Positions 1,803 through 36,800 of a stretch of 64,000 nucleotides of DNA are shown here, piece by piece (positions within the stretch are counted from its first letter, which is position 1; every line of letters begins with the position of its first letter). The position numbers and the translations under genes were made by a program. Below the pieces are notes generated by a model, which was not told where the DNA came from, ran no database searches, and worked only from the letters and a program-made list of their open reading frames with translations. The stretch comes from Eublepharis macularius (Eukaryota > Chordata > Lepidosauria > Squamata > Eublepharidae). The DNA is taken from positions 130,111,464-130,175,463 of the forward strand of contig NC_072796.1 in NCBI RefSeq assembly GCF_028583425.1, in the 5' to 3' direction.

Positions 1803-2045
1803 TCGGAAATGGCTGTGTTCCAGTTAGAATGTCATAGCTTGTCACAGGTGCAGGCGAAAGCATGACTTTAGTTGCAGAAACCTCCCATTCTATTGAAACA
1901 CCTGCCTGCAGCAATGAGGACGCCTGGAAAGATGATGGTGCTGTGCTTTTCAAGCTAACAGTCTTTCGCCATGTGCTGAATTTGGGTGAGATGGTCTCAT
2001 CTCCTTTGGGGCCAATTGTCCAAGGCTCGACAGACATCTTGGGAG
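1803..2045 (-). CDS. HHLA1: HHLA1 exon 11 (probable, Ser/Thr-rich)
   Basis: 243 bp, acceptor TTTGATTCCCCAG and donor GTGAGTAC. In phase with exon 10 it reads TPKMSVEPWTIGPKGDETIS ... LKSTAPSSFQASSLLQAGVS ... APVTSYDILTGTQPFPS, open throughout. Composition fits the variable mucin-like part of HHLA1. No match to a specific human segment was recognised. The next exon was not seen in 1-1802. Confidence 0.6.
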
Positions 2046-2154
2046 CTGGGGAATCAAAGTGTACAAAAGATATTGTAGACTACAAAGCAAGCCCAACATA
2101 TCTATGTTATATACCTGTAAACTGTAAGGGTGGAATTCCCTGTTGTGAGATACA

Positions 2155-2400
2155 GGTGTGTGTGTATTATGTGCTGTCAAGTCACCTCCAACCTATGGCG
2201 ACCCTATGAATGAAAGATCTCCAGAACGTCCAATCATTAACAGACTTCCTCAGATCCTGCAAACTGGAGGATGTGGCTTCTTTTACTGAGTCGAGCCATC
2301 TCGTTTTAGATCTTCCTCTGTTCCTATTGCCTTCCACTTTTCCTAGCATTATTGACTTTTCTGCAGAGTCTTGTCTTCTCATGATGTGACCAAATCTCTT
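2155..2400 (-). mobile_element. Bov-B LINE 3' remnant
   Basis: On the minus strand the sequence encodes GRSKTRWLDSVKEATSSSLQ and FIHRVAIGWR, a degraded form of the extreme C-terminus of the Bov-B (RTE) ORF2 (compare GRQRTRWLDGITDSM and AVHGVAKSWTQL). Only the last ~240 bp are present. Confidence 0.65.
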
Positions 2401-2584
2401 AGCTTAAAAACTCTATGATGAGGGACACAGGGCTGCCATTGAAAACAGCATCCCTGTGTCACATTCTCCAGTCTTCCCCTCAAATATCACCAGCCCTGTA
2501 ACACAAAGCCTTCTCTTTGCTTTTCCCCCCACTCTGTCCTACTTCATTGAGTGCCAATGATAGAAAAACTAACAATTTAATAGC

Positions 2585-2775
2585 CTCACAGGAAGCTGCC
2601 TTATACAGAATCAAACCATTGGTCCATCAAAGTCAGTATTGTTTACTCAGACTCTCAGTGAGGCAGAGGTCTTTTGCATCACTCATTACCTGATCCTTTT
2701 CACTGGAGATGCTGAGGATTGAACCTGGGACCTTCTGGCTGGAAAGTAGATGCTTTATAACTAAGCTGCTGACAT
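2585..2775 (-). mobile_element. tRNA-derived SINE (CORE-like)
   Basis: Reverse copy. GAGGATTGAACCTGGGACC is the reversed B-box region, and the tRNA-like head (TTAGTTATAAAGCATCTAC on the minus strand) is at the right. The left end GGAAGCTGCCTTATACAGA is the family 3' part. Other copies are at 905, 17665 and 34125. Confidence 0.7.
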
Positions 2776-2831
2776 GGGATACAGTACTAACACAATAAGG
2801 GCAACCCCGAATACACTAAACCAAAGTAAAC

Positions 2832-3634
2832 AGAAGACCAAAACCCAGGGAAAAATAAATCAGTAAGACAATGATTCATACCAAAATGTGTATACAAAAT
2901 ATAATTCTTAAACACAACACAGTAATAAATCACGTGTCAGAAGGAAATTTTAAAGAACCATCTCAGTAGAGTAAGTACAAAGACCAGTCTTAATCAATTT
3001 CAACAGACTGTGCCTTCCGAGAGCAAGGAAACGGTGCTGGAAACAAAATAAATCAAGTGAAGTCCGTTTGTTCTAGAGGGCCACAGTTTACTGACCTTGC
3101 TGTGCTGAGAAAAGACTGCACTTAAGAATTGTTTAGCCGTTTTCAATTGAATAACTTTGGTGGTGTTTGTTGTGGCCCCTGATGAAATCGTGGCTAGATG
3201 AAACAAGCTGATTGATTTAATCTTGCTGGCCGCTTGTCGGGCCAACCCGGGACTGGGCTGGATCCTGGGAACCATCTGTCTGTTTCCACCTAGTACAAGA
3301 ACTAATTCAGAAGATTACTGTCTGCCAACTTGGTTTCACATTTTTGATGGCTTATGATCTATACGGATGCTTGGACCTCGAAAGGACTCTAGAACAAACG
3401 GACGTTCACTTGATTTATTTTGTTTCCAGCGCCATTTCCTTGCCCTCGGAAGGCACGGTCTGTTGAAATTGACTAAGACTGGTCTTTGTACTTACTCTAC
3501 TGAGATGGTTCTTTAAAATTTCCTTCTGACATGTGATTTATTACTGTCTTGTGATTAAGAATTATATTTTGCATACACATTTTGGTATGAATTACTGTCT
3601 TACTGATTTATTTTTTCCTGGGTTTTGGTCTTCT
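2832..3634 (+). mobile_element. Penelope-like 3' tail in inverted-repeat arrangement
   Basis: Two arms of about 248 bp, 2832-3079 and 3387-3634, are near-perfect reverse complements, separated by a 307-bp spacer. The spacer contains a hammerhead ribozyme fold (3173-3244). Penelope-like elements are known to carry hammerhead motifs and often insert with a partial inverted copy of the terminal region. The layout here reads as HHR plus 3' tail on the plus strand, with an inverted partial copy to its left. The family is inferred from the ribozyme and arrangement, because no RT is present. Confidence 0.55.
3173..3244 (+). ncRNA. Hammerhead ribozyme motif (type I layout)
   Basis: All core parts are present in order. 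Stem I is TGGCCC at 3173-3178, pairing with GGGCCA at 3239-3244. The core is CTGATGA at 3179-3185. Stem II is short (ATC 3187-3189 with GAT 3197-3199, with one extra A beside the core). GAA follows at 3200-3202. Stem III is ACAAGC (3203-3208) pairing with GCTTGT (3232-3237). C at 3238 is the cleavage-site base, so cleavage is predicted between 3238 and 3239. The match of two independent 6-bp stems and an intact core is unlikely by chance. Confidence 0.72.
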
Positions 3635-3740
3635 GCTGACATGGCAATGCCCAGAGAAATCAACCATTGATTGAAATTCCCTTATATTCTCAGCTGGTAT
3701 CCAAGAGTTTACTGCTCATCTTTTGAATGCGCAAACTCAC

Positions 3741-3995
3741 TTGGCACTGGTGGTGCTCTTGATGAGATATTGTCGTCTTCTACTGTGGTAGGAGAAGGAG
3801 GTTCCACTGAAGCTGTTTTAGTTGACGAAACGTCAGGTCCCTTCAAGACATCAGTCTGCAGCCACAAGGCAGCATGTATAGATGGACCCTCGGCGCCTTT
3901 CAAACTCATGGTCCGCAGCCACATGGGATGCTGCGTCAAAAGCATCTCGCCTCCTTTTGAGGCTCCGGTCTGCGTCCTCATTGGCATCTTTGTAG
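3741..3995 (-). CDS. HHLA1: HHLA1 exon 10 (probable, Ser/Thr/Pro-rich)
   Basis: 255 bp, acceptor GTTCCTCTTTTCAG and donor GTGAGT. Read in the phase set by exon 9 it stays open: TTKMPMRTQTGASKGGEMLL ... GPDVSSTKTASVEPPSPTTV ... SSRAPPVP. Human HHLA1 also turns Thr/Ser/Pro-rich after the NYT region, so a mucin-like segment is expected here. The sequence itself is not alignable from memory, so the call rests on splice sites, phase and composition. Confidence 0.62.
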
Positions 3996-4322
3996 CTGAA
4001 AAGAGGAACGGGGAGGCAAACATCATCTACTGCATAGCAAAAGGAATAGCTTTTTGATTTGTGTCTCTGGCATGAGATCGCTGCAAACTGTCTTCCTGAA
4101 ATCCTCCAGGCACCTCCATCACTGAGCCACAGCCCCATCCACAACAGAGGGCTGAAGCATGGCACATAGTCCGGGAATTAACAGAACATCATCCAACCCA
4201 TTTAAAAAGAGGTGACAACGTTCTTTACTACCTCCATATAAAAGAGACCATCAATCAGCTCCAAAGTCTCAATAGCCCTTGTAAGACGACAAAATGTTTA
4301 GCACTGAAGATCGCTTGCTTAC

Positions 4323-4415
4323 TTTTAAAAGTCCACATGCCTTGTGCGGTCTCACTAAGGACCTTCTCAGCATCTTCTCGCAAAGGAATCAGGCTGGGGA
4401 GGATGGAGTCTAAAT
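4323..4415 (-). CDS. HHLA1: HHLA1 exon 9 (probable)
   Basis: 93 bp, acceptor TTTCTCTCCAAG and donor GTAAGC. It joins exon 8 in phase and reads DLDSILPSLIPLREDAEKVL then SETAQGMWTFK. I do not recall a human counterpart. It is supported by splice sites, phase and an open frame. The sequence looks like a short amphipathic helix rather than the Ser/Thr-rich region that follows. Confidence 0.7.
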
Positions 4416-6030
4416 CTTGGAGAGAAAAAGAAACAAAATCTCGGAAAATGCAGCTGCTTTCTATTATGTAAAACTAGAGTACCAATTCCAACCTAGTGTG
4501 AATGGAGGAGAGAATTCCATAAGCTAAGTGTATCTTGCATAATGAAGCGCTTCCTTTTGCTATTCCTGAACTTCATGCTACAGGTTTGTTGACAGACAGT
4601 CCCCTGCCCAGGTGTTGCTATTGCTATTGTTACTATTAATAACCATTCTTGAATTATTATATGTGATAATTCTAACCTTATTTGTTCTCATGTCTATGTA
4701 CAGCCATGCCATGGTTGTCTGTTTGTTGTATTGCGTGTGCCGCAATATGCTGAAACTATACTGTCTTATTGCTAACTTGATGTGTACTCTCTCTCTGATC
4801 ATTCATAACCATATTGCAGATGTTACTTGCTTAGGATCCAGAACGGGCCTCCCTGGTTATCTTAGAGAAATATGCGAGTCTCAGCTAACCGTGACCTTGG
4901 TGTGCCTAGATGCCAGCTTTCACTACTCTTCCCAGGTGCTGAGAATACTTTATTGTATACCTGGTGCATAGTCATAACTAAATAGATTCTCACAAAACTC
5001 GTGTAGGCTTGCGTGCCAAAACCTTAAATGTCATTTAGAGCGCAGGAAAATCAATTATAGCAGAGACTGCTTGATTTGAATTGTCACTTCTGCCAAACTC
5101 CGTGACGGGGTACAGACCTGAACTGCATAGATTCTAATAAAGCTACTTTTGCTGGAACCAACATGTGTTCACTGTGGGTGGGCTTGAGGGGTCTACCTGC
5201 CAGGGACTGACATTTGTTGTGGTGGTTGGGAATTCTCACAAGACTTGTGCTGGTCTATGACCATAATAATGAAATTTGGTTTGATATGAAATTTGATTTA
5301 TTATTACTATTATTATTGAGAGGGAGAAAACCCTCCCCTTACTGTTAATTTTAGCCAGAAACAGCTGCTGACCCTAGAGTCTACACTATTCCATTTTTAA
5401 AAAATCAATCTCTTTTCATATCTGCTTTGCTCTATGCTTTGATAGCATCCTCATGTATGCCTCTAGTATATTTTATTGATGACAACCACCTGAATTCAAA
5501 CCTGGCCTAAACAGGATTGTCCACTTGGAAACCAGTCCTTCTAGCTGTCCCATTAATATCATTTTGACCTGCAGGGATTATCGGGTGATGTGATTTAGCT
5601 CCATGCCCTGGAGAGCTTCAATTTCCCATTTCTACCTATTAAACCTCTGTTAAAGGGTCAGGACATTTTTTTCAGGGCATCTGGCCACCTTCAGTTGAGG
5701 GTTTCATTCTCCCATCTGAGGTTGGCCTGGGACGTTCCCACACATTCGGGGAATGCACCCCAAGGGATTCTCCATGATGCTCTCAGTATGGTTGCCATGG
5801 AGTTATCCGGGATGTATGAGGTATGCATGAGATATAGCAAGTTTAATAAGGATGCTGAGATTTCCAGAATAGGGATGCCGTACCCAAGAATCTCCGTGTT
5901 TGGGAAGCAACAATCATCAGGCGAATGTAATCAAGATCAGCTGGAGAGGTTTCCATCCGTGCAACTCAGCTTCTGTTTTCATTCCCCAACAGCTTGATCC
6001 TGCTCATTAATATATTCAGGATATACTCAC
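4416..6030 (-). other. HHLA1: HHLA1 intron 8
   Basis: About 1.6 kb between exons 8 and 9. I see no recognisable full repeat and no exon, only short TAT/TTA-rich simple stretches around 5295-5320. Confidence 0.5.
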
Positions 6031-6117
6031 CCAGGAGATCTGACACGTTACCAGAAAACGTGTAATTAATAACAGGGGACTTCTCAACTGCTTCCCATAA
6101 ATCTGACAGATTTCTGC
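6031..6117 (-). CDS. HHLA1: HHLA1 exon 8
   Basis: 87 bp, acceptor CCTTTTAG and donor GTGAGTAT. It reads GRNLSDLWEAVEKSPVINYT then FSGNVSDLL, comparable to human GRNLSDFWEIEEKYPIINYT then FTSG. Sequons NLS, NYT and NVS are present. It is the last exon whose match to the human protein I can follow closely. Confidence 0.92.
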
Positions 6118-6370
6118 CTAAAAGGAAAAGAAAGATTCAGAAGGAACTGATGAACGAGAGCCTCCTTTCACTTCAAGGGTTGCTATCATAAGGGTCCGGA
6201 AAACAATCTTGGGGCCTCATGATGGAATCAGGTTCAGCATTGGTCTGGGTTCGTGGGAGAATGTGGACCTAACACTTGTGGGGGAAGCTGGAGGCAAAAA
6301 TGCAGCAAGCAGAAAGCCAGGTATTTATACCAGGCTTGGCTAATCCAGGAGCTTGAAACAGAATGCCTGC

Positions 6371-7631
6371 CAATCACAAAAGATGATGCTGTATACTCAT
6401 ACATGAAGAAAGCCCTGAGAATTGGCCACACAGATTTAGGTGCTGCTCTAAGCTCCCTGCTTCAACCTGTAAAAGTCCCAATGTTACCATCAGGGCTGGA
6501 CTAAGGATTGGAAGTCTGGCCCTCAGTCATTCTGGCTTAGTATAGCGTTTCCAGCTTCTAGGTGGTGGCTGGAGATCTAGGTAATTTTCTTACAAAGCCC
6601 TGCAAAAAGAAGTCCAAATACCTGGATAACGGTTCCAAAACTGAATTACTTCCCGATATTATTGGGCGCCCTGGGGGGGGAAACCCCTCCTTATGAATCT
6701 TTGGTAATATATACATAACTGGTGTTCTAGGGGACGGGTTAATTAAACCTGTATGTTCTAATTCCGTGATATATCCCAGGGCTAGTGCTTCATCCACTGT
6801 CACCTTTATTAATAGACTGATCTTCTTTACAGGATCGTTTGGGATGGGTTTATAATCCATTTCGTTGTTTAGCTGTCTATTTATTTCCTTCATGTAGTCC
6901 TTTTTATCCATCAGCACAATTGCACCCCCTTTATCAGCCTCTTTTATTATAATAGAGTCATCAGATCTCAAGTTCCTTAGAGCCATCCTCTCCTCCCTCC
7001 GTAAGTTATTGTGGGCGCTACCCCCACGGGCTTCTATGCTGCCAATTTCTTTTAATAACATTTTTTCAAAAGTCTGTACATAAGGATTGTTAACAGTGGG
7101 AGTAAAGGAGGAACGTTTATGTATGCCGGTTTCCTTTCTTGCAAGTGCATTGCCACCGAAAAAAACTCTCAGTTTGATTTGTCTCACCAACTTGAAGACG
7201 TCTATCCTGGTTTGAAAATCATTGTATCTGGGGGTCGGTACAAAGCCCAATCCTTTGTTCAAAGCCGCCTTTTCTATATCTGACAAGGTTCTGTTCGAGA
7301 GATTGACCACTAGGTCAGTCTCCCCTGTTGCTGTCAAGTCCGTCTCCCCTTGTTGTGCCGGCCCCCTCGTAAAAAACGTCCCCTGTCTTCATAGTTGCGT
7401 GTTCTATTCCCCGGGCGTACTGACAATCACAAAAGATGATGCTGTATACTCATACATGAAGAAAGCCCTGAGAATTGGCCACACAGATTTAGGTGCTGCT
7501 CTAAGCTCCCTGCTTCAACCTGTAAAAGTCCCAATGTTACCATCAGGGCTGGACTAAGGATTGGAAGTCTGGCCCTCAGTCATTCTGGCTTAGTATAGCG
7601 TTTCCAGCTTCTAGGTGGTGGCTGGAGATCT
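6371..7631. repeat. 208-bp direct repeats flanking a Penelope-like fragment
   Basis: Positions 6371-6578 and 7424-7631 are identical over 208 bp by eye, and they exactly bracket the 845-bp insertion 6579-7423. The repeated unit is single-copy intron DNA plus the first ~30 bp of a MITE that resumes after 7631. It therefore behaves as an extremely long target-site duplication, or as a tandem duplication with the insertion placed between the copies. Confidence 0.9.
6579..7423 (-). mobile_element. Penelope-like element fragment (partial reverse transcriptase)
   Basis: The minus strand has an open frame from 7337 to the insertion edge at 6579. It reads VVNLSNRTLSDIEKAALNKG then LGFVPTPRYN near its start, IIIKEADKGGAIVLMDKKDY in the middle and MYILPKIHKEGFPPPGRPII near the end. 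These are the N-terminal segment and first RT motifs of Penelope-like elements (the DKGGA and LPKIHK...GRPI boxes). The frame is cut after FLQGFVRKLP, so the catalytic YADD and GIY-YIG parts are missing. The fragment lacks both ends of the element. Losing the 3' end is odd for target-primed insertion. Confidence 0.88.
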
Positions 7632-7820
7632 CCTGGAATTACAACTGATCTCCCAGTTACCGAGATCAGTTTCTCTGGAGAAAATGGTTGTTTTGGAGGG
7701 TGGACTTTATGGTTTTATGCCCTGATGAGACCCCATCCCTCCCCAAATTCTGCCTTCTCCAAGCTCCATCCCTCCCATCTCCATGTAGTTCCCAACCAAG
7801 AGCTAGCAACTCTAGTACAA
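7600..7820 (+). mobile_element. MITE of the GGTTGCCAG / TGGCAACCCT family
   Basis: Typical interior phrases: GTGGTGGCTGGAGATCTCCTG, ACAACTGATCTCC, ACCGAGATCAGTTTCTCTGG, then GCTAGCAACTCTAG at the right end. It is the target of the Penelope insertion: the same first ~30 bp also stand left of the insertion. Imperfect terminal inverted repeats suggest a DNA-transposon derivative. The superfamily is not settled. Confidence 0.65.
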
Positions 7821-7918
7821 AAGGAACTTTGACTCTTGAAAGCTCAGAAGAAGAGACCTCAAATGCAGGCTGTAGCTAGAGATGCTCTGCCCATCTCACT
7901 TCCACCTTTTTTCCTCCT

Positions 7919-8134
7919 AGGGTTGCCACCTTCCAGATGGGCCCTGGAGTTCTGCCAGCGTTACAACTGATCTCCAGAAAACAGAGGTTAGTTTCCCTGG
8001 AGAAAATGGCAACTTCGGAGTGCAAACTCTATTGTGTCACATTCTTGCTGAACTCCCACCCCTCCCTCAAACAGTGTCCTCCCCAAGCTCCACCCTCAAA
8101 TCTCCAGGAATTTCCCAACCCGGACTTCCCAATT
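7919..8134 (+). mobile_element. MITE of the GGTTGCCAG family
   Basis: Starts TAGGGTTGCCACCTTCCAG and has ACAACTGATCTCCAG, GGAGAAAATGGC and CCTCCCCAAGCTCCACCC in family order. The right end is worn. Confidence 0.6.
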
Positions 8135-8331: not shown

Positions 8332-10414
8332 TAGGGATGTGTGTTTCGGCATTCAGAATGCTGAAAGAATGCCGAAACAAAAGTGTTTCGGCTTCTTTCG
8401 GGGAATGCTGAAACGTTTCGGAGAATGCCGAAACGTTTCGGGTAGCCGAAAGAAAAAAGCCGAAACGTTTCGGGATTCTTTCGGCTTTCTTTCGGCTTTT
8501 CAATGGGAAAATGCCTCCGTATTCCCGGACGTCTGGGGGAGGCATTTTCCCACCGAATAAGCCCACAATTGGTGGGGACCTTCCTCTAACCCTTCTCTAA
8601 CAACCACCCAAGTTTCAGACAGATTGGACTTTGGGGGGCCATATGGCCCCCCAAAGCAGGTCCCCACATCCTCCCATAAGAAAGCGAAGGAGCAGCATAT
8701 TGTTAGCATGCTGCTGCTAATCTTTCTTCATTATTTCCTATGGGGAAAAAATGAAGAAGCAGGCTTCCTTTGCCAGGGGTGGATTTTGCATGCAAAATGC
8801 CCCCTCACCCTCAGGGGCCCTTCTCCCACCCCTCCTCCCACCCCCCACCAAGGCTCAGCCTGCTCCCACTTGGGGGGCCATTTCATGGCCTCCCCAAGTA
8901 GGTGCTCTAATCTCTACCACTGACAGCTGGGGGAGGCTTGTGTTGCCAGGGGTGGCATTTTGCATGCAAAATGCCCCCCAACCCTCTGGGGCCCTTCTCC
9001 CACCCCTCCTCCCACCCCCCACCAAGGCTCAGCCTGCTCCCACTTGGGGGGGCCATTTCATGGCCTCCCCAAGTAGGTGCTCTAATCTCTACCACTGACA
9101 GCTGGGGGAGGCTTGTCTTGCCAGGGGTGGCATTTTGCATGCAAAATGCCCCCCAACCCTCTGGGGCCCTTCTCCCACCCTTCCTCCCACCCCCCACCAA
9201 GGCTCAGACTGCTCCCACTTGGGGGGGCATTTCATGGCCTCCCCAAGTAGGTCCTCTCAGCCCCTAAAGTCCACCCCTTACAGCCCCACACAAACCCAAT
9301 TCCCCCCAGCTGCCACACACAGACCCAAATCCCCACATTAGCCCCTCACAGACCCAAATCCACCCCCACCTGCCCCACACCCATAACCCCAGGAACAGGC
9401 TGGCAAAGGCCAGCCCTCTCCCTTTGTTCCCTATGCTGGGAACTTCTAAACTCTCTTTCCCTGGGCAATTCTGCACAGCCCAGGGGTGCCACAAATGTGG
9501 GCACAGCAGGGGGGCGCACCAAAGGGCATGATAGAAGTGTACTACACAAAATAATACAACCCACTTCACCGTTTTTGACAGCAGTTGTGTTTGTGTGATT
9601 CTCTGATGTGAAGTGAGTTGTGTTATTTTTATGTAGTACACTGCTTTCATGCCCTGTTGTGCCTTCCTACTGTGTAACCTAAAGCAGTTAAGGAAATAAA
9701 GTGCTTTTGACAGCAATATTTTGGGGTGATTCTCTGATCTTAAGTGAGTTGTGTTATTTTTGTGTAAGATACTGCTGCCATGCCCTTTGGTGGGAGTGGG
9801 AGGAGGGGTGGGAGAAGGGCCCCTGAGGGCTGGGGGGCATTTTGCATGCAAAATGCCACCCCTGGCAACACAAGCCTCCCCCAGCTGTCAGTGGTAGAGA
9901 TTAGAGCACCTACTTGGGGAGGCCATGAAATGGGCCCCTGAGGGTAAGGGGGCATTTTGCATGCAAAATGCCACCCCTGGCAAAGGAAGCCTGCCTCTTC
10001 ATTTTTTCCCCATAGGAAATAATGAAGAAAGATGAGCAGCAGCATGCTAACAATATGCTGCTCCTTCGCTTTCTTATGGGAGGATGGGGGGACGTGCTTT
10101 GGGGGGCCATAACATGGCCCCCCAAAGTTCAATCTGTCTGAAACTTGGGTGGTTGTTAGAGGAAGGGTTAGAGGAAGGTCCCCACCAATTTTGGGCTTAT
10201 TCGGTGGGAAAATGCCTCCTCCAGGTGTCCTGGAAGACGGAGGCATTTTCCCATAGAAAAAAGCCAAAAGAATCCCGAAAGAATCCCGAAAGAATCCCGA
10301 AAGCCGAAAGCCGAAAGAGATTCTTGTTTCGGCTTTCGGCTTTAACGATAGAGAATCTTCTTTCGGCTTTCTACTTTCGGCTATAGCCAAAAATTTTTGG
10401 CTTGCACACCCCTA
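8332..10414. mobile_element. 2.1-kb non-autonomous hAT-type foldback element
   Basis: Termini TAGGGATGTG and CACACCCCTA are inverted, and an 8-bp target duplication (gtccagag, 8324-8331 and 10415-10422) is exact, which fits hAT. The subterminal ~150 bp at both ends are packed with TTTCGGC/GCCGAAA motifs, as expected of transposase-binding repeats. The two arms (8332-~9260 and ~9780-10414) are largely reverse complements. The left arm contains about 2.7 tandem copies of a ~174-bp unit starting at 8773, 8946 and 9121 (CCAGGGGTGG). The centre holds lower-complexity C-rich sequence and two copies of a motif around GAGTTGTGTTATTTTT. No transposase is present. Long open frames inside are by-products of the C-rich repeat. 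Confidence 0.85.
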
Positions 10415-36630: not shown

Positions 36631-36800
36631 ATTATTCAGGAGAGCTTTTTAAATGTAGGTTGGCTTATGAAATGGTTCGGAGAGATGCTCTGGAAAAAAG
36701 GGAAAAGATTGCAGATTATTCAGGAGGGCTTTTTAAATGTAGGTTGGCCTATGAAATGGTTCAGAGAGATGCTCTGGGAAAAAGGAAAAAGATTGCAGAT
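36631..36800. repeat. 84-bp tandem duplication
   Basis: Two copies of ATTATTCAGGAG(A/G)GCTTTTT to GATTGCAG start at 36631 and 36715 with few differences. They are part of a retroelement-like stretch that begins near GGAATGGCCTGCCTGATAAG (36562). Confidence 0.85.

Follow-up and report, generated by a model that had tools for sequence, protein, structure and literature searches.

The structure at positions 6371 to 7631 of the window (by which we mean the whole 64-kb stretch of Eublepharis macularius DNA that was analysed) was very probably produced by host repair rather than by the integration of a Penelope-like element (PLE). We would put the probability of this at about 0.88. Two identical copies of a 208-bp target sequence lie flush against an 845-bp internal piece of a PLE, and each new junction has an overlap of 2 bp, while PLE insertions elsewhere in the genome have duplications of 10-16 bp. 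What the window most likely contains is a young scar of host repair that took in part of a PLE, which is mostly an ordinary kind of structure. The arrangement of the reading frames in the parent element is more novel.

The duplicated target and the PLE fragment

The left copy of the duplication is at 6371-6578 and the right copy is at 7424-7631, both given on the plus strand. A direct comparison within the window finds them identical at 208 of 208 positions, as the initial annotation had claimed and at exactly its coordinates. The match ends immediately at both sides, without one extra base, and the copies abut the 845 bp between them (6579-7423). A repeat finder also returns the pair (as family D3), with four added columns that include a mismatch. 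In a search of the genome (2.24 Gb in 72 contigs), the entire 208 bp was found at only two sites, both of them in the window. Farther along the window, at 8490-10300, there is a long imperfect inverted repeat that encloses a 175-bp tandem array and comes with GAATGCCGAAACG-type short repeats, and at 36631-36798 there is a tandem pair of 84 bp whose copies are 94% identical.

Before the insertion, the target was most likely one 208-bp stretch whose end lay inside an old repeat, to judge from alignments of the flanks. The right-hand break falls within an interspersed repeat, roughly 219 bp long and with ends that resemble inverted repeats, that genome search and alignment place at about 7596-7814 on the plus strand. 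A query of 7424-7900 returned 43 rows from the genome, with the best 40 of 3,958 candidates scored; among the matches listed, two are the places in the window, 38 run across 7631/7632 and cover most of the repeat, and three are short pieces. The right copy continues unbroken into the downstream flank, and the left copy has its right edge cut within an interspersed repeat, so these alignments clearly indicate a right border that predates the event. On the other side, a query of 6171-6578 found 11 places: two in the window, eight that match the last part of the query over a mere 30-46 bp, and one over 6317-6379. That last stretch, on the plus strand, is dispersed sequence that matches locus L035 over 63 bp at 79% identity (E = 1e-5 against the genome). 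The match spans the border at 6370/6371, with just 9 bp of it inside the duplication, and on the basis of this single weak match, the left border is probably ancestral. Because older repeats cross both outer borders, the site probably held one copy before the insertion, and a single ancestral 208-bp copy is strongly suggested. We rejected two readings of the pair as parts of an element: as an LTR, because the right copy runs on into the dispersed repeat, and as a PLE pseudo-LTR, because the 208 bp are target sequence and not PLE.

Between the copies, 6579-7423 is an internal PLE fragment with its sense on the minus strand. The insert alone matches no Pfam family, and against PDB it hits only three unrelated chains (E 0.34-0.51). 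We compared 6371-7631 to the genome and obtained 43 matches (the best 40 of 248 candidates scored), which are the window itself and 42 others. Among the matches listed, 41 of these 42 start at query 207-210, which is the insert's PLE-3' edge to within 2 bp, and the other one sits in a rearranged locus, L022. The insert is 97.4-99.7% identical to 10 stretches in nine fetched loci (L009-L015, L018, and L021, which counts twice); rows below 96% identity were excluded, and L011 and L012 count as parts of one insertion. All 845 bp are covered by four of the ten stretches.

The initial annotation described the insert as an internal piece of a Penelope-like RT that lacks both element ends, including the 3' end, and we agree. 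The matching copies carry RVT_1 in their second frame and GIY-YIG at the C-terminal end. The insert's 3' side ends in the RT region, its 5' side starts within frame 1, and a 13-mer from near the PLE 3' end of young copies was not found in the window. Nor was there a second match to the insert or its frame elsewhere in the 64 kb. Single-protein queries of viral_contigs and genome_contigs, which reach close relatives only, returned no relative of the fragment.

Integration, repair, and age

To see how these elements insert, we read 20 stretches of 10 kb, which represent 19 insertions (a single insertion has one end in L011 and the other in L012). Target duplications of 10-16 bp were found in 12 of the 19. 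They are 14 bp in L009, L013, L018, L021, L025, and L023 (for one of the two right borders tried); 15 bp in L010 and L024; 16 bp in L015, L016, and L011+L012 (visible with the two combined and in neither separately); and 10 bp with filler in L014. The search gave chance matches only in L017 and nothing in L020 or L022, and a 14-bp match in L019 was discarded because it lies within the aligned element; the test covered all of the insertions but L026, L027, and L028. Seven of the 19 have no listed value. The initial annotation had given a few to about 20 bp as the normal length of target-site duplications. Eight of the loci contain head-to-head inverted pairs with their 3' sides outward, some of them trimmed (L009, L013, L015, L016, L018, L021, L024, and L025), and so does L011+L012. 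Such pairs would fit priming of reverse transcription on both strands. In the in vitro work of PMC11167929, the PLE protein of Anolis cleaves each of the two strands and extends it, and its reverse transcription begins internally. For rotifer PLEs, the accessible portion of PMC3846280 gives target duplications of 8-10 bp, or none. We also note that the insertion in L025 (about 1829-8070, with its 14-bp duplication) appears by eye to lie in the same kind of dispersed repeat as the target in the window.

A long duplication is absent from all 12 of the insertions that were measured. Because their duplications are 10-16 bp, 208 bp is not the usual integration of these PLEs, and a 208-bp duplication around a fragment without its 3' end does not fit the PLE integration seen here. 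The initial annotation had allowed for an unusual integration mode, which would need cuts on both strands 208 bp apart and an internal start of reverse transcription. The Anolis protein does cut both strands and initiate internally (PMC11167929), and the left border reads GTGATTG/GC on the minus strand (the slash marks the breakpoint), a loose fit to the ATT preference. However, the start in PMC11167929 is about 111-118 nt into the ORF, while the 3' edge of our fragment is deep in the RT region; the right-hand break, GGAGATCT/CCTGG, is not AT-rich; and PLE copies in this genome have their 3' sides outward and, where measured, the short duplications. Given also that 41 of the 42 matches listed reach the PLE-3' edge and that 0 of 12 duplications are long, we find an unusual mode scarcely credible.

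The junctions point toward repair instead. On the plus strand, the left new junction has the microhomology CT at 6577-6578 (source ...AAACT/AGGTAA, target ...AGATCT), and the right new junction has CA at 7424-7425 (source ...ACTGA/CATAG, target CAATCAC). AAACT/AGG was read in source copies L002, L004, L005, L006, and L007, and TGA/CATAG in L002, L004, and L005. Because of these overlaps, the position of each breakpoint is ambiguous by 2 bp, and the length of the PLE-like stretch may be given as 845 to 849 bp. By a simple calculation, overlaps of at least 2 bp at both junctions would arise by chance with a probability of about 0.024, so the two microhomologies are no more than moderate evidence for repair. 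Combined with the missing element ends, they fit break repair with fragment capture. That both overlaps involve real source copies also argues against an assembly artefact in which the flank was repeated beside the insert. Furthermore, the 64-kb window contains no N, and the genome assembly has 72 contigs. We regard an artefact as very unlikely.

We suggest that a germ-line break was made by two cuts, one on each strand, with an offset of about 208 nt. The host would have filled in both ends, each of which would then retain the 208-bp overlap, and an 845-bp mid-element piece of a young PLE, either cDNA or genomic DNA, would have bridged them, perhaps steered by the CT and CA overlaps at its two ends. 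We favor this fill-in version, though by only a little over even odds: staggering of the break, fill-in, and end joining are all steps that we infer from the anatomy. Fragment capture by break repair is itself a known kind of event. The available text of PMC4516963 describes retrotransposon pieces, truncated at both ends and with microhomology, that were captured at breaks in zygotes, as well as one natural captured fragment that has 2 bp of microhomology on either side. Similarly, tandem duplication through the fill-in of staggered breaks is described in the part of PMC8355091 at hand. Some features of these reports count against the fill-in version: the overhangs given in that part of PMC8355091 are 43 bp, shorter than our 208 bp, for which these reports offer no precedent, and the captures in the available text of PMC4516963 have no duplication or a short one (4 or 10 bp). 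Class 2 templated insertions, which lack a target duplication as far as the accessible text of PMC5110952 goes, count against it as well.

The initial annotation had proposed capture of a cDNA piece during repair of a break with very long staggered overhangs. Capture is supported by the absence of both ends, the 2-bp microhomologies, the single-copy look of the target, and the short duplications of PLEs elsewhere. The piece may have been cDNA or chromosomal DNA, and the duplication may have come from 208-nt overhangs or from template switching.

Replicative template switching (of the FoSTeS/MMBIR type) would yield identical anatomy if copying went to 6578, jumped to a PLE for 845 bp, and returned 208 bp upstream. 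The 2-bp microhomology at both switches would be in keeping with this, and many young PLE copies exist as templates. On the other hand, it needs two switches, with the return landing within 208 bp. (Other rearrangement at the locus was assessed only via the repeats in the window.) We consider template switching a possible but rather unlikely account. We prefer fill-in with capture because both of its parts have direct experimental precedent, as described in the accessible parts of PMC4516963 and PMC8355091.

It is also conceivable that a 208-bp tandem pair arose first and that a later break, exactly at its junction, took up the PLE fragment. The window does have short tandem duplications (36631-36798 and about 8872-9221), but the insert is exactly flush with both copies, and a break at that very base would be an unneeded coincidence. 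Because the flush fit speaks against a pre-existing pair, this two-step origin seems improbable. Finally, repair could have copied the 208 bp across the insert, and the available portion of PMC2671141 describes the copying of nearby DNA during repair in vertebrate genomes. We set this aside, as the copy would have to begin exactly at the PLE border.

How old is the scar? It had been called recent because its copies are identical, and this holds if a bound is attached: 0 differences in 208 bp allows a pairwise divergence of up to 1.4% (95%). Relative to all 10 source stretches, the insert has two private substitutions, at 6642 (where the source copy has a CpG) and at 6855. This is 2 of 845, or 0.24% (95% 0.03-0.85%). 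A third difference, at 7053, is common to L011 and L012, which are two of the seven stretches that cover it. Substitution rates in squamates are near 0.8e-9 per site per year, and a SINE-like sequence in the window would be in keeping with a squamate host. At this rate, the private changes of the insert would correspond to an age of some 3 million years, and at most about 11.

Two frames in the parent element

In L009 and L011, the PLE has two frames that overlap at -1, not one ORF. The canonical PLEs described in PMC11167929 and in the accessible portion of PMC3846280 are single-frame, and additional ORFs are described for the Athena/Terminon PLEs of rotifers in the available part of PMC5408684. 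Frame 1 has about 220-250 codons from its first Met, and no Pfam family scores over its cut-off there. Frame 2 has about 752 codons and contains RT and GIY-YIG, and in L009 and L028 (both examined) its first Met does not come before residue 106. In L009, RVT_1 in frame 2 scores 30.8 bits (cut-off 29.6) and GIY-YIG (PF01541) in the C-terminal piece scores 27.6 bits (cut-off 22.6), though GIY-YIG is absent from the list if the whole frame is scanned at E up to 0.1. We found no hammerhead ribozyme at the Rfam gathering score in five loci, and a search of L028 3200-7700 that admitted E values as high as 1 gave nothing from Rfam; a minimal form of the hammerhead may escape both searches. Both frames are open in several copies, and many other copies are broken farther downstream.

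The captured fragment includes the overlap. On the minus strand, it carries an open fragment of frame 2, from the start of the RT frame (6579-7388, the same frame as L009 4643-6916), and the end of frame 1 (7334-7423, with the stop TGA at 7336-7334; coordinates transferred from L009). Within the overlap, frame 1 reads CGT TTT TTA, which is T_TTT_TTA in the phase for a -1 slip. This heptamer, at 7370-7376 on the minus strand and at L009 4655-4661, is a candidate site of -1 ribosomal frameshifting. At 17 of 18 sites in the fetched loci, an A comes after a run of six T, as counted by a motif search that required the T run and a following GAGGGGG and that missed sites without them; the exception is L013, where the run is five T long and a deletion lies close by. 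The TGA of frame 1 comes 14 codons after CGT (counting CGT) at 16 of the 18 sites and after 3 codons in L022 and L013. The heptamer is the sole in-phase one within frame 1 of L011 and L028, the two copies tested. Slippery heptamers occur inside frame 2 too, with four in each of two sequences tested, which counts against a slip at this one.

We compared subfamily A (L011 for frame 1, L009 for frame 2) to subfamily C (L028). Before the slip, dN/dS is 0.062 with a saturated and rough dS of 2.4, from an alignment that takes in a poorly matching N-terminal part; in frame 2, dN/dS is 0.049 with a dS of 1.9, also saturated and rough. Across the opening 16 codons of frame 2 there are four nucleotide differences, a level reached by 4 of 737 stretches compared (itself included), and across the closing 14 codons of frame 1 there are three, which 8 of 187 stretches reach. 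Folds of 49 nt gave no stable close stem downstream of the heptamer, and long-range pairing after it is weak and without two-sided changes; both results count against a slip.

We think it likely, from these sequence comparisons, that this is a gag/gag-pol-like lineage of PLEs: frame 1 would be translated, a -1 slip would occur at U_UUU_UUA, and the RT/GIY-YIG frame would follow, in an arrangement kept across subfamilies at a dS near 2. Besides a ribosomal slip, slippage during transcription of the T run and splicing are alternatives. In the open-licence literature, as judged by its listing, we found no report of frameshifting in a PLE, and one may be in print elsewhere. If we are correct, then a conserved -1 frameshift would let some PLEs control how much of a separate N-terminal protein they make relative to polymerase, as many LTR retroelements do.

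Comparison with known systems

As a repair scar, the structure is clean and can be dated, and its source family and its target are both identifiable. It also implies that a very long direct repeat around a piece of a retroelement need not indicate a new mode of integration. Fragment capture in mouse zygotes, as described in the available text of PMC4516963, is similar in that internal retrotransposon pieces without ends are captured with short microhomologies. Those captures are mostly of LTR retrotransposons, with no duplication or one of 4 or 10 bp, whereas ours is a PLE with 208 bp. The staggered-break tandem duplications in the part of PMC8355091 at hand, which also cites a study of natural insertions in rice, share a flanking duplication from the fill-in of offset cuts; here, in contrast, the copies are separated by a foreign 845 bp, and their 208 bp exceed the 43-bp overhangs. 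Class 2 templated sequence insertions (PMC5110952, in its accessible text) likewise use a distant sequence as a patch and have the marks of end joining, but they come without a target duplication, unlike the 208 bp here. With PLE integration (PMC11167929; PMC3846280, in its accessible portion), the scar shares only the PLE sequence: it has neither a PLE end nor a short target duplication.
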